From NCBI GenBank assembly GCA_950295325.1, contig OX485803.1, forward strand, positions 76,401,554 to 76,465,553: 64,000 nt of DNA. The letters run 5' to 3'. Below the pieces are notes generated by a model. It did no database searches. It saw nothing but the letters and a program-made list of their open reading frames with translations, and was not told the DNA's origin. Position 1 is the first letter of the stretch; each line of letters starts with the position of its first letter. This document shows, piece by piece, positions 3,291-25,509 of this stretch. The translations under genes were made by a program, and so were the position numbers. The DNA comes from Polytrichum commune (lineage: Eukaryota; Streptophyta; Polytrichopsida; Polytrichales; Polytrichaceae).

Positions 3291-3890
3291 TTTAGGTTTC
3301 ACCAACTTTAATAGGGACCACCCACACCACTAGTTAAGAAAGTTACCAACTTACAAGTTAGTGAAGATTACCTAACCAAAATCATTGTCGCACCACCTAG
3401 TTAACCCTTAGAGGACATATGCTTTCCCGATACCACACCCAAAATATCTTTTAAAATTCATTTTAAGCATGATTAACCAATTAATTTACATAGGCTCTAT
3501 TCTAAAGAAGTATAGATCTTGCTAAGGTGCTCAATTTGACATTCTAAAAACCCCATTTGGTGCAATGGAGTAGAAGCTTTGAACAAGATTCTCCCAAAAT
3601 AATACCAAGCCCATGGGGCAACATTGTCCTTTAAGGGTCTAGTTAGGAGAGTTAGTTAATAATATGAGTTAATGAGAATCAATTTACTCATATGCTAGCT
3701 AACCATTCACATGCTAACTAACCGATCACACACCTGCACATCATGGTTACAACTAACCAAAGGTTGACCACTTTAGGGTCCAACTGCACATCCCGGTTAA
3801 GGCTTTGGTTAGAGTAAGTAACCACTCAAATTAGTTGTATAGTGCATTCATTGTCCGGTTAAGAGAATTAGCTATGAGGTATGAGGTATG
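3290..3890 (+). repeat. dispersed repeat, left copy
   Basis: Sequence here recurs in diverged form and in the same orientation at about 14700-14990, on the other side of the gypsy element. Shared blocks include acttacaagtta, caccacctagtta, aggagagttag/aggagaattag, tcatatgctagctaacc and actaaccaaaggttga. The pair could be remnants of an older repeat or of its LTRs that the gypsy element later entered. Confidence 0.5.
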
Positions 3891-4104
3891 AGAATTAACA
3901 TATGAGGTAGCTAACCTATAGGAGAGCTAATTAGATGAGATTATGAGATTGGTTTTGAAGTCCAAGAAGTCAAAAGGCTTATGGGTCTGATAGCTATTTA
4001 TTCAAAGAGGCACAAGCCTTTCTTCATACTTAGAAGATTGTCAAGGAATCAATGGTGAGAACACCATCCTATAGATTTCTCCCTTTGGCATGGAAGGGTA
4101 TTTG

Positions 4105-4520
4105 TCACGTGAGGTGACATCGGGGGCTAAGTTACGTCAATTTAGGAGTAAATGGACTCCATTAGGAGTCCATGTGTGTTGGGATGAGTAACGGATTCCA
4201 TTGGGAGTCCTAGTTAGTTGTTCATCCACTCCATGGATGAACTCCACATAGGATTGGGGTTGTATGGAGAGGAAGGCCTCTTGACTTGCCATTGTTGTCA
4301 AGTCAAGTCTTGTGAGTGTGTTTTTGAGAGAGAGAGAGAGCTTGTTGTTGCTTTCTCATGGCTATGGTGTAGTAGATTATGAGTAAAGCCTTTGCATTCT
4401 TTCTCCACCACTTGCACTCTTGGATTCTCCCTTCGTGGAGTGAGAGATAGCTTGACTCTTGTGTGTGAATTTTAGAGTTTCTTAAGCTTTGTAAGGAGAC
4501 ATTTTAGTTTCTTAAGCTTG
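4105..4520 (+). repeat. gypsy 5' LTR (shared 416 bp core)
   Basis: Identical by eye to 13463-13878. It begins TCACGTGAGGTGACAT (preceded here by TG) and contains a short GA microsatellite (gagagagagagag) plus several short palindromic stretches such as tccatggatg. Beyond 4520 the left copy runs into the leader (gagagagaaaccc), while the right copy runs into the 108 bp repeat. Confidence 0.85.
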
Positions 4521-5784
4521 GAGAGAGAAACCCTCATACTTGACAACAATGTTGTTCAAATTTTTCATTTTTTTGGTTGTATTTATGAGCTAGAATGGCC
4601 CAGTACTGAGAGCAAATGAGTGATACAAGTGTTTGAAAGCTTAGTTCGTCATTTCTTGCAATCCTCAAGAAGATTTTGAGAGAAATCTTCCCATTTTTCT
4701 TTTGTTGTCTCTTGTATTTTCTTCAAGTGTTGATGGTTGAATCTTGAGATTCCATTTGGTCTCAAGATTCTCAAGTCACATCATTCTTGCTTGCAATTTG
4801 TAAAAGCAAAGTTTTTTTATTTTTTATTTTTTATTTTTTTACAAACAAACACAAACCAAACTTAAAATCCGAATTTTTTATAATTTTTTTTTGAGCTCCG
4901 GAGCTCCACGGACACTCTTGGAGCTCCTGGAGCTCCCATTCTGCACCGGGCGGCGGCAGATCCCGGGGCCGGGGGCGGGCGTCCGCAGGCCGGGCCCCCA
5001 GACACCGACCCCCAGGCCAGCTAGGCGGGCGGGCTCCGGCCAGGCCCAGCTGGCTTCCCCTTAAAGGGGGGTTGACAGGTAAGGGGGGTTGACATTCCTT
5101 TTTATTTTTTTATTTTTTTAGTTAATTAATTACATAATTAGGTTAAGTTAAGTTAATTTAATTAGATTAAGTTAATTAAGTTACTTAGATTAAGTTCATT
5201 AAGTTAAATTTTTTTTGTTTTTTTGTTTTATTATTATATTATTTTAATTTTTAAATAAACCGTATTTTTTATTTTTTACTTTTTTACTTTTTTACTTTCA
5301 CTTTCAAATTTGGCATTTCATTGTCACAAACTTTGAGGCTCAAATTTGGGGGCATACTAGCTCCGATTGAAGTGAAATTTGAGCCTATTTTGTGTGAAAT
5401 TTGCCAAGGAATCCAATGGTGTAATTGGATTTTTGATTGGAAGTCAAAATCATTGCTGAAATTGCTAATTTCAACGCTGATTTTTGTTTTTGGGAGCAAA
5501 TTAACTCCGATTGGAGTGAAATTTGAGCCTAATTTGTGTGAAATCTTCCTAGGAGTCCATTGGTGCACTTAGTTTGTTGATTGGAGTTCATAATCACCTT
5601 GGAAATGAGCCTTTTCAACGCTGATTTTTCATTTTAATTACCAATCTCAAACCTTTGCACAATTTTGGAATTCTGGGGGCATAAACACTTGGCATTTGGC
5701 AAGGGATTGCCATTTAGATAGCCCGCAATAGGTGCAGGTTGCCATTACCTTGTAGATAGTTGCAGGTACTCAAGTGATTATTTT
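4521..5784 (+). other. gypsy 5' leader with GC-rich block and tandem repeat
   Basis: There is no coding frame before the gag ATG at 5785. An AT-rich context encloses a very GC-rich block at about 4895-5060 that contains repeated GAGCTC palindromes and G/C runs. It is followed by a repetitive ttaagttaa tract (about 5120-5205). No clear primer-binding site was found directly after the LTR. Confidence 0.6.
5345..5630 (+). repeat. two tandem 144 bp repeats in the gypsy leader
   Basis: Copies occupy about 5345-5486 and 5489-5630. Shared blocks include ctccgattg-agtgaaatttgagcc (5361 and 5505) and ttcaacgctgattttt (5470 and 5614), each 144 bp apart. They lie just upstream of gag. Confidence 0.75.
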
Positions 5785-8205
5785 ATGGTGCAAACTAGGA
5801 GCCGATATTATCGATCTCCATCACCAGATTATTTGGAAAACGTGCATACCACAAATCTTGAGCCAGAGGTAGATACCAACGAGGCTTTTGAGCCTATTTC
5901 GGCGTTGGACACTACTAGTAGGCTTCGGATTTGGAGTGTCGGCACGTTCGACGAAATGGAGGACGATCGCCACAATTCAGTGCGTGATCGGTTCTCAGGT
6001 CGAGCTGGGGGAATTTCCTTGCCCGATTGGAAACTCCGGTTTCGTACCTGGATTAAGGAGAAACGCCAAAGGTCTTCCAATTTCAATGATTGGTATGCCT
6101 TTGAACTTCTGCCTCAGTATTTGGAGTATGAGGCACTCCAAACTTACGAACGCTGGACAAAGGGTCATCAGCGACAACTTCGGGAGGTGGAGCAGTATTG
6201 GGAGGCCCAGGTTGAACTTATTTCAGCCCTTAAAGATGGGGCGATTGCCACCTTAGCTCCACCCACCTTAAAGGAGGAGGATCCACCGGAGGAGTCTAAG
6301 GACCAAGAACTGGCATTTGGACCAATGGTGGCTGGCAGTAGCACGGCTACCATTTCACGGATGGCACGTGCTACACAGGCAGCATTGACGGCTGTTGGTC
6401 CACCACCTCCATTTAATCCCCTTGCTGAATTTGTCGCACATTTGGAGGTGGAGTATGGTGGATTTCGGCGAGACCAGATGCAGCGCATTCAGGATTTCCG
6501 CCGAGAGAAGGATGACACTCCACGGACCATGTATACGCGACTCGCACGCTTTGCTGTTGAATCGGGAGGTGTTTTTGCTGAGAGTCAGCTTGTCAAAATC
6601 TTTTTGTCTAAGATTGACAAGCGACTACTTGAGTTGGCATCACCTCGGATTATCCTTGACTACGAAGGCAGAGCTACGCTTGCACAAGCGTTTGCCGTGG
6701 TTGAGAGATGTGATCGAGCTCTCTGTCAACACGATGCCACAGACATGGTATCTTGGATGACAGAGAGTACGAAATCAAGAAGAATTATCACAGCTACTAG
6801 TAGTTTAGCTGAAACTCAAACCGTTAGGGAGCAAAAGATTTTGCATTGTTGGGGTTGTGGAGAAGCTGGTCATTCGAAGAATGATCCCAATTGTCCTAGG
6901 AAGAAGAAAACTCAGCCTTTGGGAAAATTAAAACAAAAGATGGAACCAGTAAAGGCAGGGGACAATTCTAAGAAGAGACAATTGAAATGTAACCATTGTG
7001 GTGGCACTAATCACGATGTGGATCATTGTTTCCAATTTCATCCTGAGATGCGGCCTGCCAGTTATGTCACTGGAAAGTCTCCAAGGGAGCAGAGTCTTGA
7101 GGCTAAGGTGGCAGAGCTTGAGCAAAAGCTCAAATCTTCTGCATCTTTTGCTCAAATTTCTGAGCCGCATGCGGGTGGTGGCACCTCGGGGTCGGACATG
7201 TATATGTTTGGGGCATCTGGAGAGGTGGTGGCGGCGGCTTCTACTCGCTCACAAACATTGGCAGATGCGGTGGCTTCCACGAGTGGTGGTAGCAATGAGG
7301 TGCTACATCCTCGCCATGCCGGACCAGCTGATCAAATTGGTCAAGCACGTTTACCTCTTTCATTTGGATTGGTAGACACCACTGTTGTTGGGGCTAAAAA
7401 CCCTGTACCTTTGAGAGATGGGGATTCCATCTCGAAGGATGTTACGCAGGCATTGGCATATAAAATTCTCCATATGCCAATTTTCTCGGGTTCGGAGTTT
7501 ATGGCTTCGGATTTCAAGTCTGCTGCAGTTTTTCATTTAGCTGGGAGAATGTTAGAAGGTAAGGCGGATTTGCCATCCCTTCAAGTATCCCAAGCTGTGG
7601 TTGACGTACCTGTGGCTGAGGAGGTGGAGGACTTAGCCAATTTGCGAGCGGGTCTTGCGGATGCGGCGATCATTGCTTTTGGTAAGCAAACTGATATTCC
7701 TCCAGCATCAATTTCAGCAGTGGATACGTCATTTTCGAATTATGCGTCGGGAGCGGCATATCTTGCAGACATTTCTGCAAGGCCTGCTCGCGAACGGCAT
7801 AATTTGCAACCTGGAGTTGTACGGCTGATGAACGACAAATCTTTATTTGTCGTTTCACGCACGGATATGCCCACTATCCGTGCTACACCACTGAGAGTTA
7901 TGATGGATTCCGGTGCTCAACCGGTTATGATTGGCAAAGGACTCGCTGACAGTCTTGGATTGACGCCAGCAAGCTTGGATCCTTGTCCATTCACTATTGT
8001 GACTTCAGTAGGGGGCACTGAACGTGCAACAGGTTACACCAAGGCACCTCTACGTTTGATTTTTCATGTGGGGGCAGGGCCTACTTACACTCATTTGTCA
8101 ATGAAGTGTGTTGTTACTAATGCTACCAACTATGATATACTTGTTGGTCAGCAAGCTCTTTACCCACTTGGCTTTGGTTTGGATAATTGGACGGAAGAGG
8201 CATGA
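5785..8205 (+). CDS. gypsy Gag-protease (ends at an in-frame TGA)
   Basis: This is the 806-codon N-terminal part of the polyprotein, starting at the first ATG after the leader (MVQTRS, a start seen in many plant gypsy Gags). The capsid-like retrotransposon gag region lies around residues 200-330. Two zinc knuckles follow: CX2CX4HX6C at about 353-368 and CX2CX4HX4C at about 402-415, expected to bind element RNA. A coiled, charged linker leads to the aspartic protease, with catalytic Asp in MMDSGAQ near residue 707 and an ILVGQQAL segment closer to the C-terminus. The frame stops at TGA 8203-8205, but the same frame stays open beyond it into the methyltransferase. The TGA could come from CGA by one C-to-T change at a CpG. 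Gag should form cytoplasmic particles; the protease should mature the polyprotein. Confidence 0.9.
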   Translation: MVQTRSRYYRSPSPDYLENVHTTNLEPEVDTNEAFEPISALDTTSRLRIWSVGTFDEMEDDRHNSVRDRFSGRAGGISLPDWKLRFRTWIKEKRQRSSNFNDWYAFELLPQYLEYEALQTYERWTKGHQRQLREVEQYWEAQVELISALKDGAIATLAPPTLKEEDPPEESKDQELAFGPMVAGSSTATISRMARATQAALTAVGPPPPFNPLAEFVAHLEVEYGGFRRDQMQRIQDFRREKDDTPRTMYTRLARFAVESGGVFAESQLVKIFLSKIDKRLLELASPRIILDYEGRATLAQAFAVVERCDRALCQHDATDMVSWMTESTKSRRIITATSSLAETQTVREQKILHCWGCGEAGHSKNDPNCPRKKKTQPLGKLKQKMEPVKAGDNSKKRQLKCNHCGGTNHDVDHCFQFHPEMRPASYVTGKSPREQSLEAKVAELEQKLKSSASFAQISEPHAGGGTSGSDMYMFGASGEVVAAASTRSQTLADAVASTSGGSNEVLHPRHAGPADQIGQARLPLSFGLVDTTVVGAKNPVPLRDGDSISKDVTQALAYKILHMPIFSGSEFMASDFKSAAVFHLAGRMLEGKADLPSLQVSQAVVDVPVAEEVEDLANLRAGLADAAIIAFGKQTDIPPASISAVDTSFSNYASGAAYLADISARPARERHNLQPGVVRLMNDKSLFVVSRTDMPTIRATPLRVMMDSGAQPVMIGKGLADSLGLTPASLDPCPFTIVTSVGGTERATGYTKAPLRLIFHVGAGPTYTHLSMKCVVTNATNYDILVGQQALYPLGFGLDNWTEEA

Positions 8206-8274
8206 ATTAGACCGGGATGGTCCACTGGAGATGGCAGGAAGGTATTTATTCCTGTCACATTTGCAGCCACTGCT

Positions 8275-9882
8275 ATGACTATGGTTGCGGAGGCAATGTT
8301 TGGTTGCAGCGGTTCAGTTGCAGATTTGCCTTGTGCTCCAGTTTTATTGGAGGAAACAATGGACTACACTTGTAATGCGGCAGAACAACAATTTTTACCA
8401 TCTTTTCAAATTCCTGCTCGACATTTCAAGGATCCACCTCCACCATGGCGAACTCCTAAGGAGTTATCCGACGATTGTCGACACATTGTAGCGGATTTGG
8501 AGCTTGGAGAGGCACCCCCAACTTCATCCTCATTTTCTTTTGCTCAACTCATTCGTTGGCAACCATCACCTGAAGGTATTGTCCTTGTGGAGATCTTTGG
8601 AAGCATTGGCACAGGTTTGGCGGCAGTGTTGGAAGCTGGAATTACAGTTTGGCGATATATTCATGTGGACAATGGGTATGCAGCCAACAGAGCCGTCCGA
8701 CACCACATCCAACAATTGTTGTTGAGATACCCCGCACAATTGTTAGCCTCTGCCATTCATGGATGTTGTGGTCAACTTCCTCAAGATGTCACTATGATTA
8801 GTGATGAGGATTTGAGAAGGTTGGGCCACGTGGATTTGATTATTGCAGGATGGCCTTGTCAAGGCCATTCGCGGGCAAGAACTGGCCAGGGATTGGATGA
8901 TCTTAGGTCTAGTTTGTTTGCGGATTTGATGCGATTGACGCAATGGTGGTTTACCCACCAATCAACTCCGCCAGGGTACATTTTCGAAAATGTACCATTA
9001 TTGGGTGATACCCGGCACAAAGTGGTGAAGAATGGTGAGTACATTAACCAAATTCTGGGTACTCCAACATTTCTGGATGCTGCATCTTTGGGATTCTTTG
9101 CTCATCGGCCTCGTTGGTTTTGGACCAACTTGGTATCACCTCGGGTGCTTTCATCGGCGATTGCCCGCATTCCCCGCCTTATGGATCGCAAGGTGGATGA
9201 CATTTTAGATGATCATCGTGTTTCCTTGGCAGTTACCAAGGATGACACCTTGCCATTTGCATTAATTAATAAGGTGGGCATTCCGAGAGGTGCACTACCT
9301 ACTTTTGTGACCTATCCACAGTCTTTTGCATTTCGATCTCGTGGACCTGGCATGATTTGGGATTCAAAATCCCAAACTTATGAGGAGCCTACGGCAGATG
9401 AGCGGAAACGCGCCATGGGTTTTCTTACAGGTACCACGGCTGCTCACGGGCTTCAGGAAGGTCAGAGACATTTCCTATTGGGGCAAGCTATGGATCTTAA
9501 TAACATTGTGTGGATGATTGGAATTTGTCTTGCTGCTCAACAACGTATGCATGACCAATTGTTTACTCTGAGGGCAAAGAACAATGGTCAGGGGGCAATG
9601 GAGCCGCAATCCAAGGATCACATTGAGGTCAATGACACCGAGGGATTATTTCCTTTGAAACTTCATGTTGCGGAAGAGCTTCGAGCCCAACGTGTTTTTT
9701 TGGCTTTGGCCCAAGAGTTTGGGAAGTTGGAGGCCCATAAAATGTTTCCACTTCTATTTCTTGGTGATACTTCATATGTGGGTAGCTATTTAGCTACACA
9801 AACTGATTGTAGTGGAGAGGATACGCATTTGGATTCAAGTGCAGATGATGGGGGCAAAGGTGTTGCCCTCTCCACGGACTAG
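8275..9882 (+). CDS. cytosine-C5 DNA methyltransferase domain within gypsy pol
   Basis: 535 codons from ATG 8275, in the same frame as gag-protease (open from 8206). Methyltransferase motifs appear in canonical order: motif I VEIFGSIGTG (residues about 105-114, AdoMet binding); motif IV AGWPCQG with the catalytic Cys at about 195; motif VI FENVP (about 237-241); motif VIII RPRWFWTNL (about 278-286); and a motif IX/X-like LLGQAMDLNNIV (about 401-412). A target-recognition stretch of roughly 90 residues lies between VIII and IX. The HRPRWFW-N and FENV contexts recall DNMT3-type enzymes. Motifs are not in the permuted order of plant DRM proteins, and motif IV has PCQ rather than the PCN usual in DNMT3. 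It sits between protease and reverse transcriptase, an unusual position for any gene. Catalytic residues look intact, so activity is plausible. It ends at TAG 9880-9882. Confidence 0.88.
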   Translation: MTMVAEAMFGCSGSVADLPCAPVLLEETMDYTCNAAEQQFLPSFQIPARHFKDPPPPWRTPKELSDDCRHIVADLELGEAPPTSSSFSFAQLIRWQPSPEGIVLVEIFGSIGTGLAAVLEAGITVWRYIHVDNGYAANRAVRHHIQQLLLRYPAQLLASAIHGCCGQLPQDVTMISDEDLRRLGHVDLIIAGWPCQGHSRARTGQGLDDLRSSLFADLMRLTQWWFTHQSTPPGYIFENVPLLGDTRHKVVKNGEYINQILGTPTFLDAASLGFFAHRPRWFWTNLVSPRVLSSAIARIPRLMDRKVDDILDDHRVSLAVTKDDTLPFALINKVGIPRGALPTFVTYPQSFAFRSRGPGMIWDSKSQTYEEPTADERKRAMGFLTGTTAAHGLQEGQRHFLLGQAMDLNNIVWMIGICLAAQQRMHDQLFTLRAKNNGQGAMEPQSKDHIEVNDTEGLFPLKLHVAEELRAQRVFLALAQEFGKLEAHKMFPLLFLGDTSYVGSYLATQTDCSGEDTHLDSSADDGGKGVALSTD

Positions 9883-9894
9883 CAATCACAGGCT

Positions 9895-11037
9895 GTGCTG
9901 GCACCAAGTGGCAATCATTCTATGAAGAAGGAAACCACGGAGTTTGACGATTGGCCAATTGAAGTGGGGCCAAAGCTTACTGGTGCTGAAGCACGAAAAG
10001 TACGGGCATTTATTCGCTCTTACCGTAATTGTTTTGCCTTTAGTCTTCATGATCTTGAAGGATATAAAGGTAAACCTGTTCGTATTCAACTCGAGGACGA
10101 CCACCCTATTTTCAGACGGCCGTACAGACTTAGTACCTCTGAAAGGTTGGGTGTTCAAACTCGATGTCAAGAGTTATTGGCAGCGGAATTGATTGAACTC
10201 TCCAATGGAGAGTATGCTTGTGCCACGGTTATGCCGTCAAAGAAGGATATATTTGGCAACTGGACGGAAAAACGGATGTGTGGTGATTATCGTCCAGTCA
10301 ACCGCAAGACCAAGTCGGATCGATATCCAATGCCGATTCCGGAGGAGTTGTTTGATGCACTAGGATTTTCTAGAATCTTCAGCACTCTGGATTTGAGATA
10401 TGGTTATCACCAATTACCTTTGTTGTTGGATGATCGGGTGAAGACCACATTTTGGGGAATTGATAAAGATGGCAAGGATCAACTTTATCATTGGAAATTT
10501 CTGTCATTTGGTCTCAAGAATGCACCAGCTGAATTTCAACGGGTGATGGACCAATTATTGGCTGGTTTGCCGTTTGCTAGATGTTACATTGATGATGTTA
10601 TCATTTTTAGTAATAGTCCACAGGATCATGTGAGACATTTGCAAGCGGTATTTGAACGACTTCAACGGTGGGGACTCCGTTTACATCATGGAAAATGTAA
10701 GTTTTTTCATTATCAATTGCCCTATTTAGGCCACATGATTGTTCCTGGCGGTCTTGGTGTGCAACAGGCGAAGGTGGACGCTTTGCACAAAATTCCCGCA
10801 CCTAGTGATGTACTACGGCTTCGTGCATTTCTAGGATTGGCAAATTATTATAGGAGGTTTGTCAAAAACTTTAGTTTGATCGCCAAACTTCTTACCATTC
10901 TCACGGGGAAAGACCAACCATGGATTTGGAGTCGGGAACAACAACAGGCATTTGATACATTGAAGCAGAGGCTCGGTTCAGCGCCAATGCTTCGACGTCC
11001 GGATGTGTCTAGAGCTTTTCAATTGCACACGGATTAG
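9895..11037 (+). CDS. gypsy reverse transcriptase segment
   Basis: This segment is in frame with the preceding methyltransferase and separated from it only by TAG 9880. No ATG opens it (the nearest in-frame ATG is 15 codons into the open stretch), so it was surely once part of one polyprotein. Gypsy RT blocks are clear: a primer-grip lead (YRLSTSERLG), VMPSKKD, RMCGDYRPVNRKT, STLDLRYGYHQL, FLSFGLKNAPAEFQRVMD, and the catalytic box YIDDVIIF near residues 231-238, followed by PYLGHMI and the RAFLGLANYYRRFV connection to RNase H. The segment ends at TAG 11035-11037, in the first RNase H motif directly after the catalytic Asp (LHTD, stop, S). Many plant gypsy elements have Trp there, so TGG to TAG is a likely origin. 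Confidence 0.9.
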   Translation: MLAPSGNHSMKKETTEFDDWPIEVGPKLTGAEARKVRAFIRSYRNCFAFSLHDLEGYKGKPVRIQLEDDHPIFRRPYRLSTSERLGVQTRCQELLAAELIELSNGEYACATVMPSKKDIFGNWTEKRMCGDYRPVNRKTKSDRYPMPIPEELFDALGFSRIFSTLDLRYGYHQLPLLLDDRVKTTFWGIDKDGKDQLYHWKFLSFGLKNAPAEFQRVMDQLLAGLPFARCYIDDVIIFSNSPQDHVRHLQAVFERLQRWGLRLHHGKCKFFHYQLPYLGHMIVPGGLGVQQAKVDALHKIPAPSDVLRLRAFLGLANYYRRFVKNFSLIAKLLTILTGKDQPWIWSREQQQAFDTLKQRLGSAPMLRRPDVSRAFQLHTD

Positions 11038-11043
11038 AGTGCA

Positions 11044-11559
11044 GTGGGATTGGGAGCGGTATTGACACAGAAAGATGAAGAGGGAAAGGAATATGTGGTG
11101 GCTTATGCATCTAGAAGCAATAATAGTGCTGAATCTAATTATTCTTCTTATGAAGGCGAGGCCTTGGCGGCCGTTTGGGCCATTGCACATTTTCGACCTT
11201 ATTTGTATGGGCAAAAGTTTACTTTGGTGACTGATCATCAGCCTTTAAAATGGCTTATGGAATCAGATAAGCTCACCGGGAAACTTGCTAGGTGGGCATT
11301 GTTACTTCAGGAATATGATTTTGAAGTTGTTCACCGAGCAGGAATTGCCAACTTGGATGCAGACGGATTGTCTCGCAATCCAAGTCCTTCAGATGAGGAT
11401 TTAACTGGAGCCAGGTGGCATGGAGATTGTGATCGTGAGGCAGTGCCGGGTTGGCATGCTGCCACATATCTCACAATGATGTCAGGATTGGCTGCTGAGA
11501 TCCTTGTGGAAGAACAAGATGAGGAGGTTGATAAATCTCTTGTTGTTAGTGATGTGTAG
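11044..11559 (+). CDS. gypsy RNase H segment
   Basis: It continues the RT frame across TAG 11035. It carries the rest of RNase H: GLGAVLTQ after the first Asp, a Glu in SSYEGEALAAVWAI, an Asp in TDHQPLKWL, and the last acidic residue in NLDADGLSR. These fit the D-E-D-D active site that removes the RNA strand during reverse transcription. No ATG is present at its beginning. An acidic tail follows, ending at TAG 11557-11559; the same frame is open beyond it into integrase. Confidence 0.85.
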   Translation: MGLGAVLTQKDEEGKEYVVAYASRSNNSAESNYSSYEGEALAAVWAIAHFRPYLYGQKFTLVTDHQPLKWLMESDKLTGKLARWALLLQEYDFEVVHRAGIANLDADGLSRNPSPSDEDLTGARWHGDCDREAVPGWHAATYLTMMSGLAAEILVEEQDEEVDKSLVVSDV

Positions 11560-11619
11560 GAAGACCAGACGGTCTTACACAAACTTCAACAAGGGATATT
11601 TCTTCTTGGACTATCTGCT

Positions 11620-13026
11620 ATGGAGCGAGATAGAGTTAGTCATCGAATAACAAGGTTTCGTTGGGCAAATAACTTGTTATTTCGTGTGTGGCCGAACGGA
11701 ACGAGGCGTATCGTTCCAAGGCCAGATCAAAGAGCTTCTTTAGTGCGGCAAGTGCACGAGGAGCTTGGATATTTTGGAGTGCGAAGGACACACTCTATGT
11801 TACGCAACCAATATTGGTGGACTGGTATGTATCAACAGGTTGCCACTTATGTTTCTCGGTGTGAAGTATGTGACCGGGTTAGGTCAAGTTTTAATACTTT
11901 ATCACCTCAACTTCAACCTTTACCTATTATGGGCTTGGGATATCGTTGGTCTTTGGATTTTGCCGTACCACTTACTATCACTCCACGTGGTTCCAAGTAT
12001 GTGCTTATGATGGTGGAGCATTTTAGTAAGTGGATTGAACTCGTGGCTCTTCCCCAAAATTCCTCAGAATTGGCTGCTATGGCATTTCTTGATCGAGTTT
12101 TGGCACGGTTTGGAGCACCTGCAGAGGTGTTGACGGATCAAGGGAGAGAATTTCTTGGATCTTTCGAGGCTTTGTGTACCAAGGCTTTGATTGATCATCG
12201 TACAACTTCCAGAGATCACCCTGAGGCAGATGGTTTAGCTGAACGAGTTGTTCAGACGGTTAAGCGCGGTCTGCGGAAGTATGGATTGCTTCATGGAAAC
12301 CATCGCGATTGGGACTTGATGTTACCATGGATAGCAATGGGTTACCGTTTCAGCAGGCAAGCATCTTTGGCATCCTATAGTCCATACCAACTCTTGTATG
12401 GACGGGAACCAATTTTACCTAGCTCGGTGCAAGAGAAATTGGCTCCCGTGGTAAACTTGGATGATCCAGATATTTGGGCTCAATGTCTTCATGACCGCGC
12501 AACGTTCTTCCAAAAGGCCATGCCTATGGCCATGGAGAACTTAAATATTGCTCAACATCGTGACACATTACGGTATGCCCGGATCCGCAGTGAAGCTTAT
12601 CGACCTCAGGTTCGTAGATTTTCCAAGGGGAATTATGTTTACTTGCAACGGGAGGCGCCTACGACATTGGATGTCAAGGCTGGGCGCACGATTTTGCGGG
12701 TAAAAGATGTCTTGCCAAGTGGTATATTATTGCTTGAAGGCAAGGATGGACGGGAATGTCGTGAGCATTCAAAGAATTGTGCTCCATGTCACCTTCACAT
12801 CGACGGCTCTGTGCATCCCGAGTTGGCGGTTGTACCACAGGGTCTGCCTTGTTATGTGTGTGGAGAGAAGAAAGGAGCTGCAACAATGTTATTGTGCGAC
12901 CATTGTCAACGTGGATGGCACATGGCATGTTTGACACCTCCCTTTTTGACTCTTCCTTCTGGCAATTGGGTTTGTCCTCGTTGTCGGAAAGCCTCCCACT
13001 CCATGGCCGTTAATGATCATGATTGA
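11620..13026 (+). CDS. gypsy integrase with C-terminal PHD finger
   Basis: 468 codons, again in the same frame. The N-terminal HHCC zinc-binding region (VHEELGYFG ... CEVCDRV) lies near residues 47-87. The catalytic core has Asp in SLDFAVPL (about 113), Asp in LTDQGREF (about 173) and Glu in ADGLAERVV (about 208), the DDE triad for strand transfer. After the core and an SH3-like tail, where chromoviruses carry a chromodomain, there is instead a C4HC3 PHD finger (residues about 411-455): CX2C-X11-CX2C-X4-H-X2-C-X14-CX2C, with the typical LLCDHC, RGWH and GNWVCPRC segments. PHD fingers read histone H3 tails, so this module may steer integration. The stop is at 13024-13026. Confidence 0.92.
   Translation: MERDRVSHRITRFRWANNLLFRVWPNGTRRIVPRPDQRASLVRQVHEELGYFGVRRTHSMLRNQYWWTGMYQQVATYVSRCEVCDRVRSSFNTLSPQLQPLPIMGLGYRWSLDFAVPLTITPRGSKYVLMMVEHFSKWIELVALPQNSSELAAMAFLDRVLARFGAPAEVLTDQGREFLGSFEALCTKALIDHRTTSRDHPEADGLAERVVQTVKRGLRKYGLLHGNHRDWDLMLPWIAMGYRFSRQASLASYSPYQLLYGREPILPSSVQEKLAPVVNLDDPDIWAQCLHDRATFFQKAMPMAMENLNIAQHRDTLRYARIRSEAYRPQVRRFSKGNYVYLQREAPTTLDVKAGRTILRVKDVLPSGILLLEGKDGRECREHSKNCAPCHLHIDGSVHPELAVVPQGLPCYVCGEKKGAATMLLCDHCQRGWHMACLTPPFLTLPSGNWVCPRCRKASHSMAVNDHD
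12850..12984 (+). other. PHD zinc finger (C4HC3) in integrase tail
   Basis: All eight zinc ligands are present in the order C-C-C-C-H-C-C-C with normal PHD spacing, plus the conserved Trp two residues before the seventh ligand. Family knowledge: PHD fingers bind unmodified or methylated H3K4 and other H3 tail states. Which one this finger would bind cannot be told from the sequence. Confidence 0.9.
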
Positions 13027-13350
13027 AGACTTTGTGGATGTTTGTCACATGTCTTAGTGGTGAAGTTGTTATCTAGTTGGTCGGAAATTTTATGGGATTG
13101 AAAATCACATTGGGAGAGTTTCAAAGAATTCAACATAAATTGTTGAAGGCGATTAAGGATGGGGCTCACATTGCACCCAGCCTATAGTTCTTGGGTTACT
13201 TCCTCAACCATGAATTTAATTCCCTAGATTACCATTACCCAATTGGATATGTACAGATGTAGCAACAACTTCATCATGTTCAACATCTCTACCGATGAGT
13301 GTGTTTGTTCCTAGCCGATTGGAGGGGCTCCTTATCTGCTAGAGGGGGCA
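13027..13350 (+). other. gypsy 3' untranslated tail and polypurine tract
   Basis: Non-coding. It ends in the purine-rich agaggggg (13341-13348), a good polypurine tract, directly followed by cacTTGAAGAGG. This placement suggests that the 3' LTR begins at about 13353 with TGAAGAGG, that is, with the 108 bp segment. Confidence 0.55.
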
Positions 13351-13458
13351 CTTGAAGAGGTGGTTGTTTAGCATATTAGTTTGCTATGTTTATTTTGCTA
13401 ATTGATGTTGATGACGACACTCGATCTGTTGTGTTTAACGATCTTAGTTTACACGACA
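13351..13458 (+). repeat. 108 bp direct repeat, copy 1 (before right LTR core)
   Basis: Starts CTTGAAGAGGTGG and ends TTTACACGACA. Identical by eye to 13875-13982. Absent from the 5' LTR side. Confidence 0.9.
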
Positions 13459-13462
13459 GCTA

Positions 13463-13878
13463 TCACGTGAGGTGACATCGGGGGCTAAGTTACGTCAATT
13501 TAGGAGTAAATGGACTCCATTAGGAGTCCATGTGTGTTGGGATGAGTAACGGATTCCATTGGGAGTCCTAGTTAGTTGTTCATCCACTCCATGGATGAAC
13601 TCCACATAGGATTGGGGTTGTATGGAGAGGAAGGCCTCTTGACTTGCCATTGTTGTCAAGTCAAGTCTTGTGAGTGTGTTTTTGAGAGAGAGAGAGAGCT
13701 TGTTGTTGCTTTCTCATGGCTATGGTGTAGTAGATTATGAGTAAAGCCTTTGCATTCTTTCTCCACCACTTGCACTCTTGGATTCTCCCTTCGTGGAGTG
13801 AGAGATAGCTTGACTCTTGTGTGTGAATTTTAGAGTTTCTTAAGCTTTGTAAGGAGACATTTTAGTTTCTTAAGCTTG
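13463..13878 (+). repeat. gypsy 3' LTR (shared 416 bp core)
   Basis: Identical by eye to 4105-4520. It is preceded by gcta where the left copy has tg, and flanked on both sides by the 108 bp repeat. Confidence 0.85.
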
Positions 13879-13982
13879 AAGAGGTGGTTGTTTAGCATAT
13901 TAGTTTGCTATGTTTATTTTGCTAATTGATGTTGATGACGACACTCGATCTGTTGTGTTTAACGATCTTAGTTTACACGACA
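13875..13982 (+). repeat. 108 bp direct repeat, copy 2 (after right LTR core)
   Basis: Identical to 13351-13458, overlapping the end of the LTR core by cttg. It ends in CA, as an LTR terminus should, and is followed by tattc, which resembles the gtatt before the left end. Confidence 0.85.
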
Positions 13983-16900
13983 TATTCTAACTAAATATAT
14001 GCCGATAAAATGCCTCTCCAAAGCAAGCTACTTCCCTCATCTCATCTCACGGCTAATCTATCTCATGACGGCACCACCTAGTTACAATTAAGGTTTGAAT
14101 AAAAACCATCAAACTAGAAGTTAACTAACTTTTGGGACCTTGCTTTTGTGAAAAATCTCAACCCATCCATACCCCTAATGCGAACTAACTTTTACAAATG
14201 AGTAGCCTAAGTTTTTTTCTTGAGTGTTTGCCTTTATTTTCCCAATCTCTTCTCCATTTCACTAAGACCACACTATTTCTTACATTGCCCTAAGTTAAAT
14301 TATAAGATAATATTTTAGTGATAAAATTAAAATTAAAAAACAAGCTTTATTCCATTTTTAGATTATTATTATTATTTTACACTTATAACACTTTATTATT
14401 TCAATATAATGAAACAAAAATGGTGTGGGCCACAAACTTATAATGTATCATAAGTTAGTGTCATGTTCAAAACTTGGCAAGTTGAACAAAACTTCAATCG
14501 ATCAGCCTTGACTTCTCTTTTAAATTGGTCAACCTTTAATTAGTGGTAACCAAGATGTGCGGGCGTGCAATCGGTTAGCTATATTGTTTTGTCTAATTAG
14601 TGTGGGTTGCCATTTGGAGTTATGTGTTGCTATAATTTTTACCAACATTATCAAGTTTACCAAATAAGTTAGATCATATTCTTTGGTGTGCACACTAATC
14701 ACTTATGTTAGGGTTCAACCACACCACCCAATTAAGAGAATTGGCTAACTTACAAGTTAATGAATAGTTAACCAAAATTTTGGCTAACTAAATTCATGGT
14801 TGCAACACCTAGTTAGGAGAATTAGCTAACAATAGGAGCCAGTGAGATCAACTAATTCATATGCTATCTAACCAATTGCACACCCGCACATCCTAGTTAC
14901 CACTAACCAAAGGTTGAACAATTTTAAAGAGGAATTAAGGTTGACTAACCGAAGGTTTGCTCAACATGCCCAAGTTTTGAATATGATACATTATAATTTT
15001 ATAGCCTGCACCCCTTAGAAGATCTCATGGCAACGTCGTGCCCTTATATCTTGGGAATGAAGAGTACGGGGGATATGATCTAGAGATATATCACAAAACA
15101 CCACTTCAAGTTGTCTACTGATCGTCTCCTCCCAAATAGCATAGAAGGTAGTAGGTTATTGGTTGGTAGCCTATGTGAGAAAGCCGGCATATTTCACTCC
15201 CCTATTGTACAAAATTGTAATAAGAACATCCTTTATGTTCAAGGTAGTTTAAATAATTGCATATACACATGGTAATAATGGTTGCGTTGGTTGAGGTCTC
15301 TAGCTATGTTGTGGTTTGTATTACCAATGGAGCAAAGTATTGGTTGACATACAACATTTAAATTGATATACATAATATTGGTTGATTCCACTTTATTTGT
15401 GATAGCATGTGCCCCTAAAAATGGCGAGAACTATGGACATTATTATTGGTAGGGCTTACTATGCATACAACCCTACTAGTACATGGGACTGCAAGGAGGG
15501 ATGGAGCACACACTAACATATATGTTTTACAAGGATGTAGCGTATGACACACCAGACAAAGAAAAATATATTTTAAAAGCATGTGCGCAAAGAGTGCCTA
15601 AGGTGCGATTTGCATATAATTATGATATAGTATAAGGGGTCCAAACATCACATACATATCCATATTGTTGTCGGCATGAGAGATTGTTATGTGAGGAGCG
15701 AATGGAGACAAAGAAACTCGCATCAATTGTTGTTTGCCACTTTGTGTATTTTGATCTCATTCAAGGTTTGTATGCCCACATGTGTCCAAACCTTATTGGC
15801 ATGGGACAAGGCGTTTGTTAGGGCCAATATAAATATTAATTATGAATATGGACTACATAGTTGTGCACATAATCCATGTGCATGTGGTTGGATTGGGTTG
15901 ATCATCCTTTGAATATAACCAAGTGTTGTGGATATTATTTGTATCGGTGGACCTTACTATAGGGACCATAAGATTGAGGTTCACAATGTGCAAAATATAG
16001 CCTTGGTACTTGCCATGACATGGTAAATACCATGTAATCTATGTTCACATGCATGGCACCACATGCTAGTTAGGTGTACATACAACCCAATCACATTTTT
16101 GTGGCTAGAAATGTGTGATTGAGTGGGCTTAGTTACTCAATCATTCCAATGTGCATGTTGCATGATGAAAGATAGACATCCTAGATGTGCATGTGTAATT
16201 AGTTATGGACATTGAGTTATTTAAACCTAGTGACCTCTCAATGTTGCCAACACCCCACTATTTTTTCGGCCAAGTTTCATATCAACCACGTTACCAATAC
16301 AAACGCCCGACTTTAACCCCTTCATGTATCATGATGTGTATCCTAGCGTTAACCAACACTCTATATATCAGCTACAAATCATATGGGTAGTGTTGGTGAT
16401 AGAAGAATATGTATTGTCGAATTGACATCAACTATACAATGTGACCACATGTAGGTGGTCTTCATTGATGTTGCATTGGCAAAGCAATACACAACTTGTA
16501 TACTAATTTTGAACATTGCCTTTGTCCAAATATACTTAAATATTCTCAGTTGGCAGTAAGACCATGGATTTGTCAATTTTACACTTCGATGAATGATTAC
16601 TATATATAAGGCATTGGGAGCATATAACTTGGGGTCCCACATTCTCATTGCAATCATAAGGTGCTATGCAAGATCATACTAGGCCATTCAAGCACTTTAT
16701 CCCATGCAAGAGGCCATAGGATATGAACACTAGGGATACCACAAATGCATACCCCTACCCTTGTGGGTCAACCACAATGGGTCATGAGAACTTTTTACTT
16801 AGAAATTATGTAAGCAATTGAGATATTATAATTCAAGTATCGTGAGTTGGCATGGCTTCCGAATCCACTGTGACTTGCTAAATCAATGAAATAATTGGCA

Positions 16901-20825: not shown

Positions 20826-23800
20826 TCAGGGCTTGCGTTCTTGTGTGTCAGGTAGTTGTGGATGAGCGGCAACTTTCGATTGGCAGGTAGGTTGTGATTC
20901 GTGTATCTCTGTCAAGGTGACCATATGTAGACTGCGGCGAAGACGTTCGAACCTGTCACGCGGTAATGCTTTCGTCATAATATCCGCAAGTTGTTGGTCT
21001 GTTGATATATACAAAATGTCGATGTCGCCGCTTTCGAACTTTTCGCGAATGAAGTGATACTGAATGTCGATGTGCTTTGTCCGCTTATGGTATTCTGGAT
21101 TCTTGACAAGCCGTATGGCACTCTGATTATCACCAAATAAAGGTGTTGGACCTGGTTGTGAGAACCCAATGCTTGTGAGTAGTCGGCGTAGCCATACTGC
21201 TTCTTTGGTGGCCATGCAAGCGGCGATGTACTCAGCTTCTGTTGTCGATTGTGCAGTGCATTGTTGCGCTTTGGAACTCCAAGCAATGAGACTGGATCCG
21301 AGTTGGAATACGTACCCTGATCTGGATCGGCGAGAGTCAACATCTCCGCCGTAATCAGCATCACAGAAGCCTTGGAGATATGCAGTTGTTGAGGTACGCG
21401 TATATAAAAGACCAAGATCTGATGTTCCTCTGAGGTAGCGTAGTATCCGTTTCACTGCTGTCCAATGTATTTGTCTGGGGTTTTCGCAAAATTTTGCGGC
21501 ATGATTTACTGCATATGTTATATCTGGGCGTGTAAGTAAAGAGATGAACATTAAACAGCCTATAGCTTCTTTATAAGGAACTGTTAACGGCGTTGTGCTT
21601 TCTGATGGGTCAGGAACAATGGAGAGCGTGACATTTGGGTCTGCTGGAGTGCTGACAGTATAAGATTCGGCCATGCCGAAGCGCTCGAGTGTATGTTGGA
21701 TGTATCGATGTTGATGTAGGAAGGTAAGTCCTGCCTGTCGATTCTGATAGACTTCAAGACCAATATAATAGCCCATGTCTCCTCGGGTGATTTTGAAAAC
21801 CCTGTCCAAATATTGCAATATATCTTCTAGCTTTGCTGCATTGGTTGAGGAAACGATACCATCATCGACAAAAATTCCCAGTATTGTTTCAACCTTGTCT
21901 GGATGTGTGGTGTCTGTACTGTAATATACACAAGGGTCAGCTATGCTGGGTAGGAGATGAAATTGTTGCGCAAATTTGTCGAATGTCTTGTTCCAACGTC
22001 GCGCACTCTGCTTCAAACCATATAGGCTCTTAAGTAGAAGACATACATAAAGAGGCCATAGATCGTCTTGATAACCTTCAGGTTGTTCCATGAATATGAT
22101 GTCGATAAGGTCAGCATTTAAATATGCTGTACAGACATCAAACTGGGCTGTAACCATTCCATGCGCATTACTGATTACAAAAACTGCTCTGACTGCATCG
22201 TACTTTATAACTGGTGCATATGTTTCGGTGAAGTCAATACCAGCAACCTGAGAGAATCCTTTAGCAACGAGACGGGCTTTGAACCGTTCAATCTCGCCAG
22301 AAGGTTTGTACTTGACCTTGTATATCCATTTGCACTTCACAGCTTTCCTGTCTGCAGGTAAGGGTTTCAGAACCCATGTTTTGTTGTTCAATAAAGAGTT
22401 AAACTCTTTATCCATTGCTTCTTTCCATTGCTGAGCATGAGAGGACTGCATGGCTTCCTTGTACGTTTTAGGTTCAATGATCTGTGTTGATGATGAAACA
22501 ATGTATGCAGTGGAACCTGAATTGCTTTTATTGTTGTCATATTTAACCCAATCTCCATAACGAATGGGAGGTTGACGGGTTCTAGGTCTCAAAACAGAAT
22601 CAGCAGGATCTGGCATGTTGTCACTCTCAATGTTGCTGCTCTCAGGAGGATCAGATGCACTGCTTGGTGTCGGGGATGATAAATCGGGAACAGGTAAAGT
22701 GACAAGAATCTCGTGATTATGGTCTGGAACAATCTCTCCCTGAGTATTGTCAATTTCCTCTCCCTGATGATGTGTAACAGTGTCTTCCCGATTATGTTGA
22801 GTAAGCTCTCCCTGAATAAGTGTATTATTGTCTCCCTGAGAATGAGCAGTAGTCACACCTTGTATATTCTGATTTGTCTCTCCCTGATGAAATGCTTCCA
22901 TATTGTTGAATAATGGATATGTAGTATCAGCGTCAGAGTGAGCAGCATCATCTTGATGATCTTGGTGGTCATGAGCATTTGGATTGTCGTGAGGATGAGA
23001 ATTTTCACTTACAAAAGGTAGACTGATACTTTGATTGTCTTGTTGATGCATATGTGGTGCAACTGGTGCTGCTGCGGTTGCTGGGATAACCTGCTGTTGT
23101 GAATAAGGTAATCCTATGATACTCAAATCTGATTCAGTAGAAGAGGATATGTAGTCCTTGGTGATAGTACCAAGTGTTTCATGAATGACTACATCTGTTC
23201 CAATATGGATGCGTTTTGTCTTAGGCTGCCATAATCTGTATGCTCTCCCTTTCTGGTCGTATCCCACAAAAATTAGTTTCCGACTTTTGGGTTCTAACTT
23301 GCTTCTCTGTTTCTTGGGTATGTGCAAGTATGCATCACTACCAAAAACTCTGAAGTAAGACACATCTGGGATCTGTCTGAACATTCGTTCATAAGGAGTA
23401 CGATCCGATCGTTGGGGACTGATGGTGCGATTCCAGATATGAACTGCTGTACTGGCTGCCTCAGCCCACAAACTGAGAGGTAAGTCCTTTGAATGCAGCA
23501 TGCTTCTTGTGGCTTCAACTATTGTTCTGTTGTTGCGTTCAATGTATCCATTCTGCTCTGATGAATATGGTGCTGAAAACTCATGAATAATCCCCTTCTC
23601 TTGTGTATAATCTTCAAATTGTTGACTCTTGAACTCTCCTCCTTGATCTGTTTTAATCTTTTGAATGTCAACATGAAGCTCTTGCTTCATCATTGAATAG
23701 AGCTGTTTGATATAGATGAGAGCTTCTGATTTTGTCTTTAGAAAGAAAATAACCATATAGCCTGTGTTATTGTCTTTGCAAAGCATAAAATAAGATGCAC

Positions 23801-25433: not shown

Positions 25434-25509
25434 TATTGCATCTCTCTTTTTGTTGTTTCAAATAAACCTTTGAGTCTTTGCTAATCAATAGCGGTGTGGG
25501 CCCATAACC

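Follow-up and report, generated by a model that had tools for sequence, protein, structure and literature searches.

Two retrotransposon systems that carry a DNMT3-type cytosine methyltransferase come closest to the element described here. KnitGypsy-Dnmt3 of Klebsormidium nitens is a gypsy element with a Dnmt3 domain, repeats in the order A-coding-B-A-B as in DIRS and a Ka/Ks under 0.2, and SymbioDIRS-Dnmt3 of Symbiodinium, in which the domain order in Pol differs between families, encodes an enzyme that methylates CG in yeast (PMC5890265). PMC12344493 also mentions streptophyte and dinoflagellate retrotransposons with DNMT3. We analysed a 64,000-nucleotide stretch of the Polytrichum commune genome (the window; assembly GCA_950295325.1, contig OX485803.1, positions 76,401,554 to 76,465,553 of the forward strand), in which positions 4103-13982 are a Ty3/gypsy-type retrotransposon with a cytosine-C5 methyltransferase (MTase) in its coding frame. 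The initial annotation of this stretch had pointed to such captured enzymes in algae and dinoflagellates, which agrees with PMC5890265.

The window element resembles KnitGypsy-Dnmt3 as described: both are of gypsy type, both have a Dnmt3-type domain that is unpermuted, lacks introns and shares the coding frame of the element, and both show A-coding-B-A-B repeats and purifying selection on the domain. It differs in that the DNMT of KnitGypsy-Dnmt3 lies in the Pol polyprotein open reading frame (ORF), whereas the MTase here ends a gag-protease-MTase ORF in front of a UAG-CARYYA stop; the passages of PMC5890265 that describe KnitGypsy-Dnmt3 do not mention a PHD finger, TGTC/GACA ends, 4-bp duplications or A-coding-B copies. 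SymbioDIRS-Dnmt3 likewise combines a Dnmt3-type domain with A-coding-B-A-B repeats in a retrotransposon, but it is of DIRS type with a tyrosine recombinase, whereas the window element has a DDE integrase with H2C2, a gypsy-type reverse transcriptase (RT)-RNase H and a PHD finger. A tyrosine recombinase was absent from a Pfam scan of the five coding pieces (E up to 0.01), in which rve and H2C2 were found instead.

A single frame holds gag, aspartic protease, MTase, RT, RNase H, integrase and PHD finger (Table 1), and the order protease, RT, RNase H, H2C2/DDE integrase places the element in the Ty3/gypsy type, as the initial annotation had proposed. The MTase lies within 8206-9882, with the protease on one side and RT on the other. 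The protease matches in Pfam (Asp_protease_2, 2.5e-4; gag-asp_proteas, 1.1e-3) were both weaker than the curated cut-offs, and the top PDB sequence match of the PHD finger was CHD4 (1e-15). The domain order, the stop context, the MTase motifs in many copies, the PHD finger, the A-coding-B-A-B ends and the 4-bp target duplications can all be read from the nucleotides. Our preferred reading goes further: the window holds a broken, recently inserted copy of a multicopy Ty3/gypsy-type element, with ORF1 encoding gag, protease and a DNMT3-type MTase and ORF2 encoding RT, RNase H, integrase and PHD finger behind a leaky UAG, and with the MTase acting on the DNA of the element. Taken as a whole, including this inferred role, we judge it somewhat better than an even bet.

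The motif check found the MTase motifs in canonical order and where the initial annotation had placed them. The linear order I, IV, VI, VIII, X, with the catalytic PC, ENV and RxR, supports its proposal of an unpermuted, DNMT3-like enzyme; a plant DRM origin was rejected, since DRM has the permuted order with VI-X before I-V. The best profile and fold matches among solved C5 methyltransferases were also to DNMT3, and the predicted fold is of DNMT3 type. No DRM or DNMT1 row was among the 50 fold-search rows listed, which by itself does not imply exclusion. Plant host DNMT3 and DRM belong to the same catalytic fold family, but PMC6453930 describes DUF3444 in plant DNMT3 and a rearranged motif order in DRM, and neither feature was seen in the window element. 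Motif I reads FGSIG in the window copy, and a second glycine (FGG) stands at that place in 29 other loci.

The genome (408 Mb, 64 contigs) was then searched for further copies, as the initial annotation had suggested; reading was confined to the best matches and does not sample the family at random. The domain was indeed present in other copies: 81 scored matches, the window copy included, were obtained among 637 first-look candidates, and 79 of them spanned the entire MTase segment. Among the matches listed, an RT partner was found for 62 of the 81 MTase places and none for 19; RT started exactly 3 nt (one stop codon) after the MTase in 60 of the 62 pairs, 6 nt after it in one and 20 nt in one. 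Conversely, 45 of the 107 RT places listed had no listed MTase partner. In 14 of 15 sampled from these 45, MTase sequence was present upstream; most of these remnants were frameshifted or about 71-88% identical, and two (L041, L046) had only the C-terminal part in a 1.7-kb stretch. The fifteenth (L044) had unrelated DNA until shortly before the stop.

A separate search with PF00145 (123 scored of 353 candidates, six loci read) revealed a second MTase family, represented by L071, L073, L074, L075 and the RT side of L076. Thus an assembly chimera was ruled out by the 79 full-length matches, the second family and the relatives elsewhere. It is very improbable that this genome alone acquired the MTase as a passenger, or that assembly produced it: nothing beyond the decay of the window copy speaks for it, and against it stand the identical MTase-stop-RT spacing in 60 places, the same layout in L008 (a contig filed under a cyanobacterial metagenome-assembled genome, MAG) and gag-protease-MTase proteins in liverwort and metagenome sets.

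Among the six loci read from the PF00145 search, none was recognised as a host DNMT3; with 123 of the 353 candidates scored, one may exist. The sixth locus, L072 (G000:C2:4702500-4705200), has an exon with ALGNSF (motif X-like) before LSLFSGIGG and SPCNNLSGSN, a permuted order from which we take it to be a host DRM-like gene. DRM is described as restricted to streptophytes in PMC12344493, so this exon points to a streptophyte host.

The boundary between MTase and RT was conserved. In the family of the window copy (family 1), all 30 loci read have TAG; the hexamer behind it is CAATCA in 29 of them, the other one having CAACCA, and L008 also reads TAG CAATCA. The same nine nucleotides were found at 10 of 10 further places upstream of unpaired RTs, and at another five such places the exact stop string was matched in four and not in L051. 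TAG 9880 can therefore not be attributed to decay, as it is kept in 30/30 and 10/10 loci. In the second family, L071, L073 and L074 have TAG CAATTA and L076 has TAG CAGTTA, while L075 runs out of frame shortly before the stop. The UAG CAA UUA of this family is also the sequence of tobacco mosaic virus. When the genome was searched for the second family with stop and hexamer left open, 81 places were found (0 with the reversed control); TAG was present in 80 and TAG plus CARYYA in 75 (58 CAATTA, 16 CAGTTA, 1 CAATCA).

The second codon after the stop is Ser (TCA) in one family and Leu (TTA) in the other, and the hexamer falls within CARYYA in both. Because this codon changes between families while CARYYA stays, the comparison points to the RNA signal, not the encoded residue, as the selected feature. 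According to PMC4132726, CARYYA promotes readthrough, tobacco mosaic virus being one of several examples, and here the stop, the hexamer and a conserved in-frame downstream ORF occur together, so the UAG between MTase and RT is probably leaky. The claim of the initial annotation that MTase, protease and RT share one frame was thus borne out, but its single polyprotein was not, as the conserved UAG-CARYYA divides gag-protease-MTase from RT-RNase H-integrase-PHD. The stop and hexamer are of the same class as those of plant viruses (PMC4132726), and they differ in that the product before the stop is the MTase-bearing gag-protease ORF of a retrotransposon. A stop between two in-frame retrotransposon ORFs is also described for Candida Tca2 (PMC2194720) and Verticillium VdLTRE5 (PMC3441728); according to these descriptions, however, those are UGA stops of copia-type elements with no CARYYA, whereas the present one is UAG-CARYYA in a gypsy-type element and follows protease-MTase.

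The 100-nt folds downstream of the stop had z scores of 0.44 (window), -3.36 (L008) and -0.79 (L074), and on these values we do not claim a conserved RNA structure 3' of the stop. The upstream 100-nt folds had z scores of -3.06 (window), -2.06 (L008) and -4.51 (L074), and a GC-rich hairpin-like stretch (GGGGGCA...TGCCC) was seen about 10-30 nt 5' of the stop in the window (9849-9868), L008, L071, L073, L074 and L076.

In our preferred reading, the majority of ribosomes would end at the UAG, giving gag-protease-MTase as the main product, and the MTase would thereby be packaged at near-gag amounts, while a minority reading through would yield RT, RNase H and integrase. The MTase would then methylate the new double-stranded DNA of the element in the particle or the pre-integration complex, possibly at CG as with the dinoflagellate retrotransposon enzymes, and the integrase would insert the methylated DNA, perhaps guided by the PHD finger. 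For activity, the support is the precedent of SymbioDIRS-Dnmt3 with its CG methylation in yeast. The PHD finger also admits an action on host chromatin, in which PHD-bearing integrase complexes would bring the MTase to histone-marked sites, so that methylation of the flanks hides the insertion or makes it tolerated. The finger is within the aligned range of 88 of 88 integrase matches (among the matches listed) and also occurs in the distant MTase-bearing relatives P0109, P0114, P0117 and P0118; but the MTase lies 5' of the stop, so with rare readthrough it would mostly not be joined to the PHD finger, and P0102 and P0116 list none. We think this action on host chromatin unlikely.

Selection was assessed by the ratio of nonsynonymous to synonymous polymorphism (pN/pS) and by variant counts in 30 of the at least 81 copies, 25 copies for RT and 27 for gag-protease (copies with more than two stops were dropped), with 23 copies in the same-copy comparison. 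The pairwise pN/pS of the MTase core was 0.55 (95% bootstrap over codons 0.36-0.86; 30 loci). RT variants present in at least three copies were 3:12 (nonsynonymous:synonymous) and RT singletons 73:39 (p 0.001), while the MTase-core singletons (53:20) matched the neutral expectation of 2.05-2.71. Over longer distances, identity to L008 was 68% for the MTase core (synonymous sites saturated), 84% for RT, 88% for integrase-PHD and 57% for gag-protease. The initial annotation had considered neutral drift (dN/dS near 1); within the genome selection is purifying but weak, and relative to L008 it is strong. Within-genome data alone thus give modest evidence of selection on the MTase, and the sequence comparisons as a whole indicate an enzyme that has been kept over long times, under less constraint than RT.

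Several results weigh against our preferred reading. In the same 23 copies, pN/pS was 0.62 (0.40-1.00) for the MTase core, 0.30 for RT and 0.44 for gag-protease, and MTase-core variants in at least three copies (12 nonsynonymous:9 synonymous) did not differ significantly from the singletons (Fisher p 0.19). A stop was present within the MTase segment in 7 of 30 loci, and the window copy itself has the motif I substitution and three nonsense codons. Six of the 81 second-family places lack TAG plus CARYYA: TAG is followed by TAATTA in three, TAGTTA in one and CGATTA in one, and the stop is lost in one. Finally, KnitGypsy-Dnmt3, the nearest described relative that was assayed, gave no methylation in yeast, a result that PMC5890265 itself treats as inconclusive. 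This last result and the weak within-genome constraint relative to RT would also suit a domain retained without DNA methylation, for instance to extend gag in a structural or nucleic-acid-binding role, or to methylate RNA. Such a role appears rather improbable, as the catalytic Cys, which the initial annotation had reported, was retained in every one of the 30 loci read, conservation reached at least 90% for W-P-C-Q and for the Glu of ENV in 38 aligned relatives, the Glu and Asn of ENV were invariant in 20, and the 68% identity of the core to L008 compares with 41-43% for the parts of the MTase segment beside it.

The repeats at the ends of the element were not those of an ordinary Ty3/gypsy element. 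Identical long terminal repeats (LTRs) at both ends were not found, since the left terminus is block A and the right terminus block B; instead, there are split direct repeats as in DIRS/PAT elements, with A on the left and B-A-B on the right (A-coding-B-A-B), and some copies are A-coding-B. An ordinary LTR reading of the 4105/13463 repeat was dropped after the B blocks were placed. Among 11 right ends read (nine of family 1 including the window, two of family 2), nine were B-A-B and two (L070, L077) stopped at the first B. The TG...CA ends and short target duplications typical of Ty3/gypsy elements were, by contrast, present: the termini are TGTC...GACA, and exact 4-bp target duplications were present in 10 of 10 testable copies (eight of family 1, two of family 2; a non-random sample); one further copy (L055/L056), whose left end lay beyond the fetched stretch, is outside this count. 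In the window, the start of A1 was fixed by the target duplication TATT and its end by the A2/B2 junction of other copies.

Where B1 meets A2, the two ends form a GACA-GC-TGTC palindrome, GACAGCTGTC, in seven of seven other family-1 B-A-B copies, in L078 and in L008; the window copy has one change in it (GACAGCTATC). The exact 20-mer TTTACACGACAGCTGTCACG at this junction occurred 138 times in the genome (0 for the reversed control). The A2/B2 junction was ACCCTCAT followed by CTTGAAGAGG in the seven other family-1 copies and not in the window copy, in which A2 is shorter. A G-run ending GGGGGCA was at the position of the polypurine tract in eight other family-1 right ends. In L063/L064, a 118-nt duplication within block A was present in both A1 and A2 of one copy, which suggests that both A blocks were copied from one template.

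These ends are consistent with a model in which permuted circles are inserted at the internal GACAGCTGTC palindrome. If reverse transcription makes the repeat B-GC-A, opening a circle at the palindrome would give A-coding-B-A-B when it has two repeats and A-coding-B when it has one. DDE integrases ordinarily act on linear ends, and the circles themselves were not observed, two points that speak for a different origin of the ends, namely that A-coding-B-A-B is made directly as linear complementary DNA (cDNA) by an unusual strand transfer, with no opening of a circle. However, with the polypurine tract immediately 5' of B1, conventional reverse transcription should yield a left end that begins with B, not A; at the A2/B2 junction the end of A abuts the edge of B that follows the polypurine run, resembling a two-LTR circle junction (again in the seven other family-1 copies and not in the window); and A-coding-B copies exist too (two of the 11 right ends). 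For the ends only, we give the linear-cDNA route a chance somewhat short of even. The combined proposal, that a lineage with a DDE integrase and DIRS-like split repeats integrates circles opened at GACA-GC-TGTC, and that a leaky stop of tobamovirus type loads its particles with a gag-fused DNMT3 that methylates the DNA before insertion, is offered tentatively, as possible but doubtful.

The window insertion looks recent, because A1 and A2 differ by one mismatch over 419-421 nt (at the A2/B2 edge) and B1 and B2 by none over 108 nt. The stops at 8203, 11035 and 11557 look like decay. The position of TGA 8203 was a sense codon in 28 of 30 loci, the remainder being the window copy and L026, which was not alignable upstream. 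A 1047-amino-acid (aa) RT frame without a stop in the match was found at 19 of the 107 RT places listed; this frame is 384 aa in the window copy. For so young a copy, the defects mean either that the template was already defective or that decay was fast.

Relatives outside this genome were collected by three protein searches with 31, 76 and 49 overlapping matches, in which only the approximately 8000 candidates sharing most words were scored. The named relatives were from Marchantia polymorpha, Sphagnum troendelagicum and the liverwort Calypogeia fissa, together with one protein filed under a bacterial MAG, so the land-plant occurrence extends beyond Polytrichum; no K. nitens protein was among the named matches. 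L008 has the two-ORF layout of the window element: gag-protease-methyltransferase in ORF1, then the stop, then an ORF2 that is 1047 aa long and carries a PHD finger close to its end. A tree of MTase relatives was built from 56 of 120 proteins, those with one domain match covering the core (split gene models such as P0031 and P0042 were dropped). It had a group of 40 (100/98) with the window family, the Pfam-protease rows P0013, P0014, P0090 and P0091 and the named liverwort rows; within it, the window family fell on one side, in a sub-group with 26 members, and the liverwort rows on the other, in one with 14.

The position of the MTase varied among relatives: before RT in P0028, P0102 and P0118 (the last outside the tree), after RNase H in P0108 and before the integrase in P0106, P0109, P0114, P0116 and P0117. 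These varied positions leave two readings: one enzyme was kept while its domain shifted within the polyprotein, or uptake of the domain occurred repeatedly. In P0106, P0109, P0114 and P0117, RNase H precedes the MTase and the integrase follows it, and a PHD finger lies close to the end. In P0119 (1943 aa, on a 54-kb contig), a polyprotein of Ty1/copia type, a DNMT-like domain separates gag from integrase. A scan of viral contigs gave seven loci with 27-50% identity over short stretches, which were not used as evidence.

The coordinates of the element are collected in Table 1. A few candidate primer-binding-site strings were looked for in 4001-6000 and none was found. Elsewhere in the window, a Ty1/copia polyprotein is encoded at 20826-25457 on the minus strand, its frame open for 1543 aa, and 1587-2647 holds degenerate repeats with two to three units, which are 46-112 nt long and 70-87% alike. 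An 84% direct repeat (3705-3774 and 14855-14924) flanks the element, which perhaps was inserted among older dispersed repeats.

Table 1 Parts of the methyltransferase-bearing element in the window
Feature	Position	Strand	Basis or remark
Left terminal block A1	4103..4537	+	starts TGTCACGTGAGG, ends ...ACCCTCAT
gag + aspartic protease, N-terminal part of ORF1	5785..8202	+	motifs and Pfam
gag CCHC-like knuckles (n=2)	6847-6894, 6988-7029	+	motifs
Protease motif DSGAQ	7906-7920	+	motif
TGA inside ORF1	8203..8205	+	window copy only, among loci read
DNMT3-type cytosine-C5 methyltransferase core (predicted)	8551..9558	+	motifs I, IV, VI, VIII, X in linear order
ORF1 C-terminal tail with predicted helices	9559..9879	+	model helices 452-482, 484-495; 43% aa identity to L008
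Conserved stop UAG CAA UCA (UAG-CARYYA) between MTase and RT	9880..9888	+	stop-context comparison
RT + RNase H, ORF2 start	9883..11559	+	RVT_1 6.7e-29, RT_RNaseH 1e-35
In-frame TAGs breaking RT/RNase H of the window copy	11035-11037, 11557-11559	+	
DDE integrase	11560..12849	+	H2C2 zinc domain 11722-11886 (Integrase_H2C2 3.1e-16), core 11941-12222 (rve 2.6e-13)
PHD finger, ORF2 C terminus	12850..12984	+	PF00628 6.5e-10
Polypurine-tract-like AGAGGGGGCA, immediately 5' of B1	13341..13350	+	sequence
Block B1, ends ...ACACGACA	13351..13458	+	100% identical to B2
Internal end-to-end junction GACAGCTATC	13455..13464	+	palindrome GACAGCTGTC in other copies
Block A2	13461..13874	+	match to A1
Block B2, right terminus ...ACACGACA, then target duplication TATT	13875..13982	+	

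The principle of a DNMT3 in a gypsy element with A-coding-B-A-B repeats has already been published for Klebsormidium. Marchantia, Sphagnum and Physcomitrella are absent from the main text of PMC5890265, and a search of open-access titles and abstract openings for a DNMT gypsy element, a split-repeat gypsy element, a Ty3 integrase with PHD finger or a bryophyte retrotransposon with an MTase yielded no such element except that of PMC5890265. Going by these searches, the novelty lies in land-plant families with many copies, in the conserved UAG-CARYYA stop between MTase and RT, in the PHD finger, and in how the ends are built, with 4-bp duplications and a testable circle model. The repeat layout and its junctions provide a checkable model for DIRS-like ends on an element with a DDE integrase. 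Since many land-plant retrotransposon copies carry a DNMT3-type enzyme, with an expression ratio that is probably set by a leaky stop, bryophytes, which include genetically tractable species, become a place to test for what reason an element brings a silencing enzyme with it.

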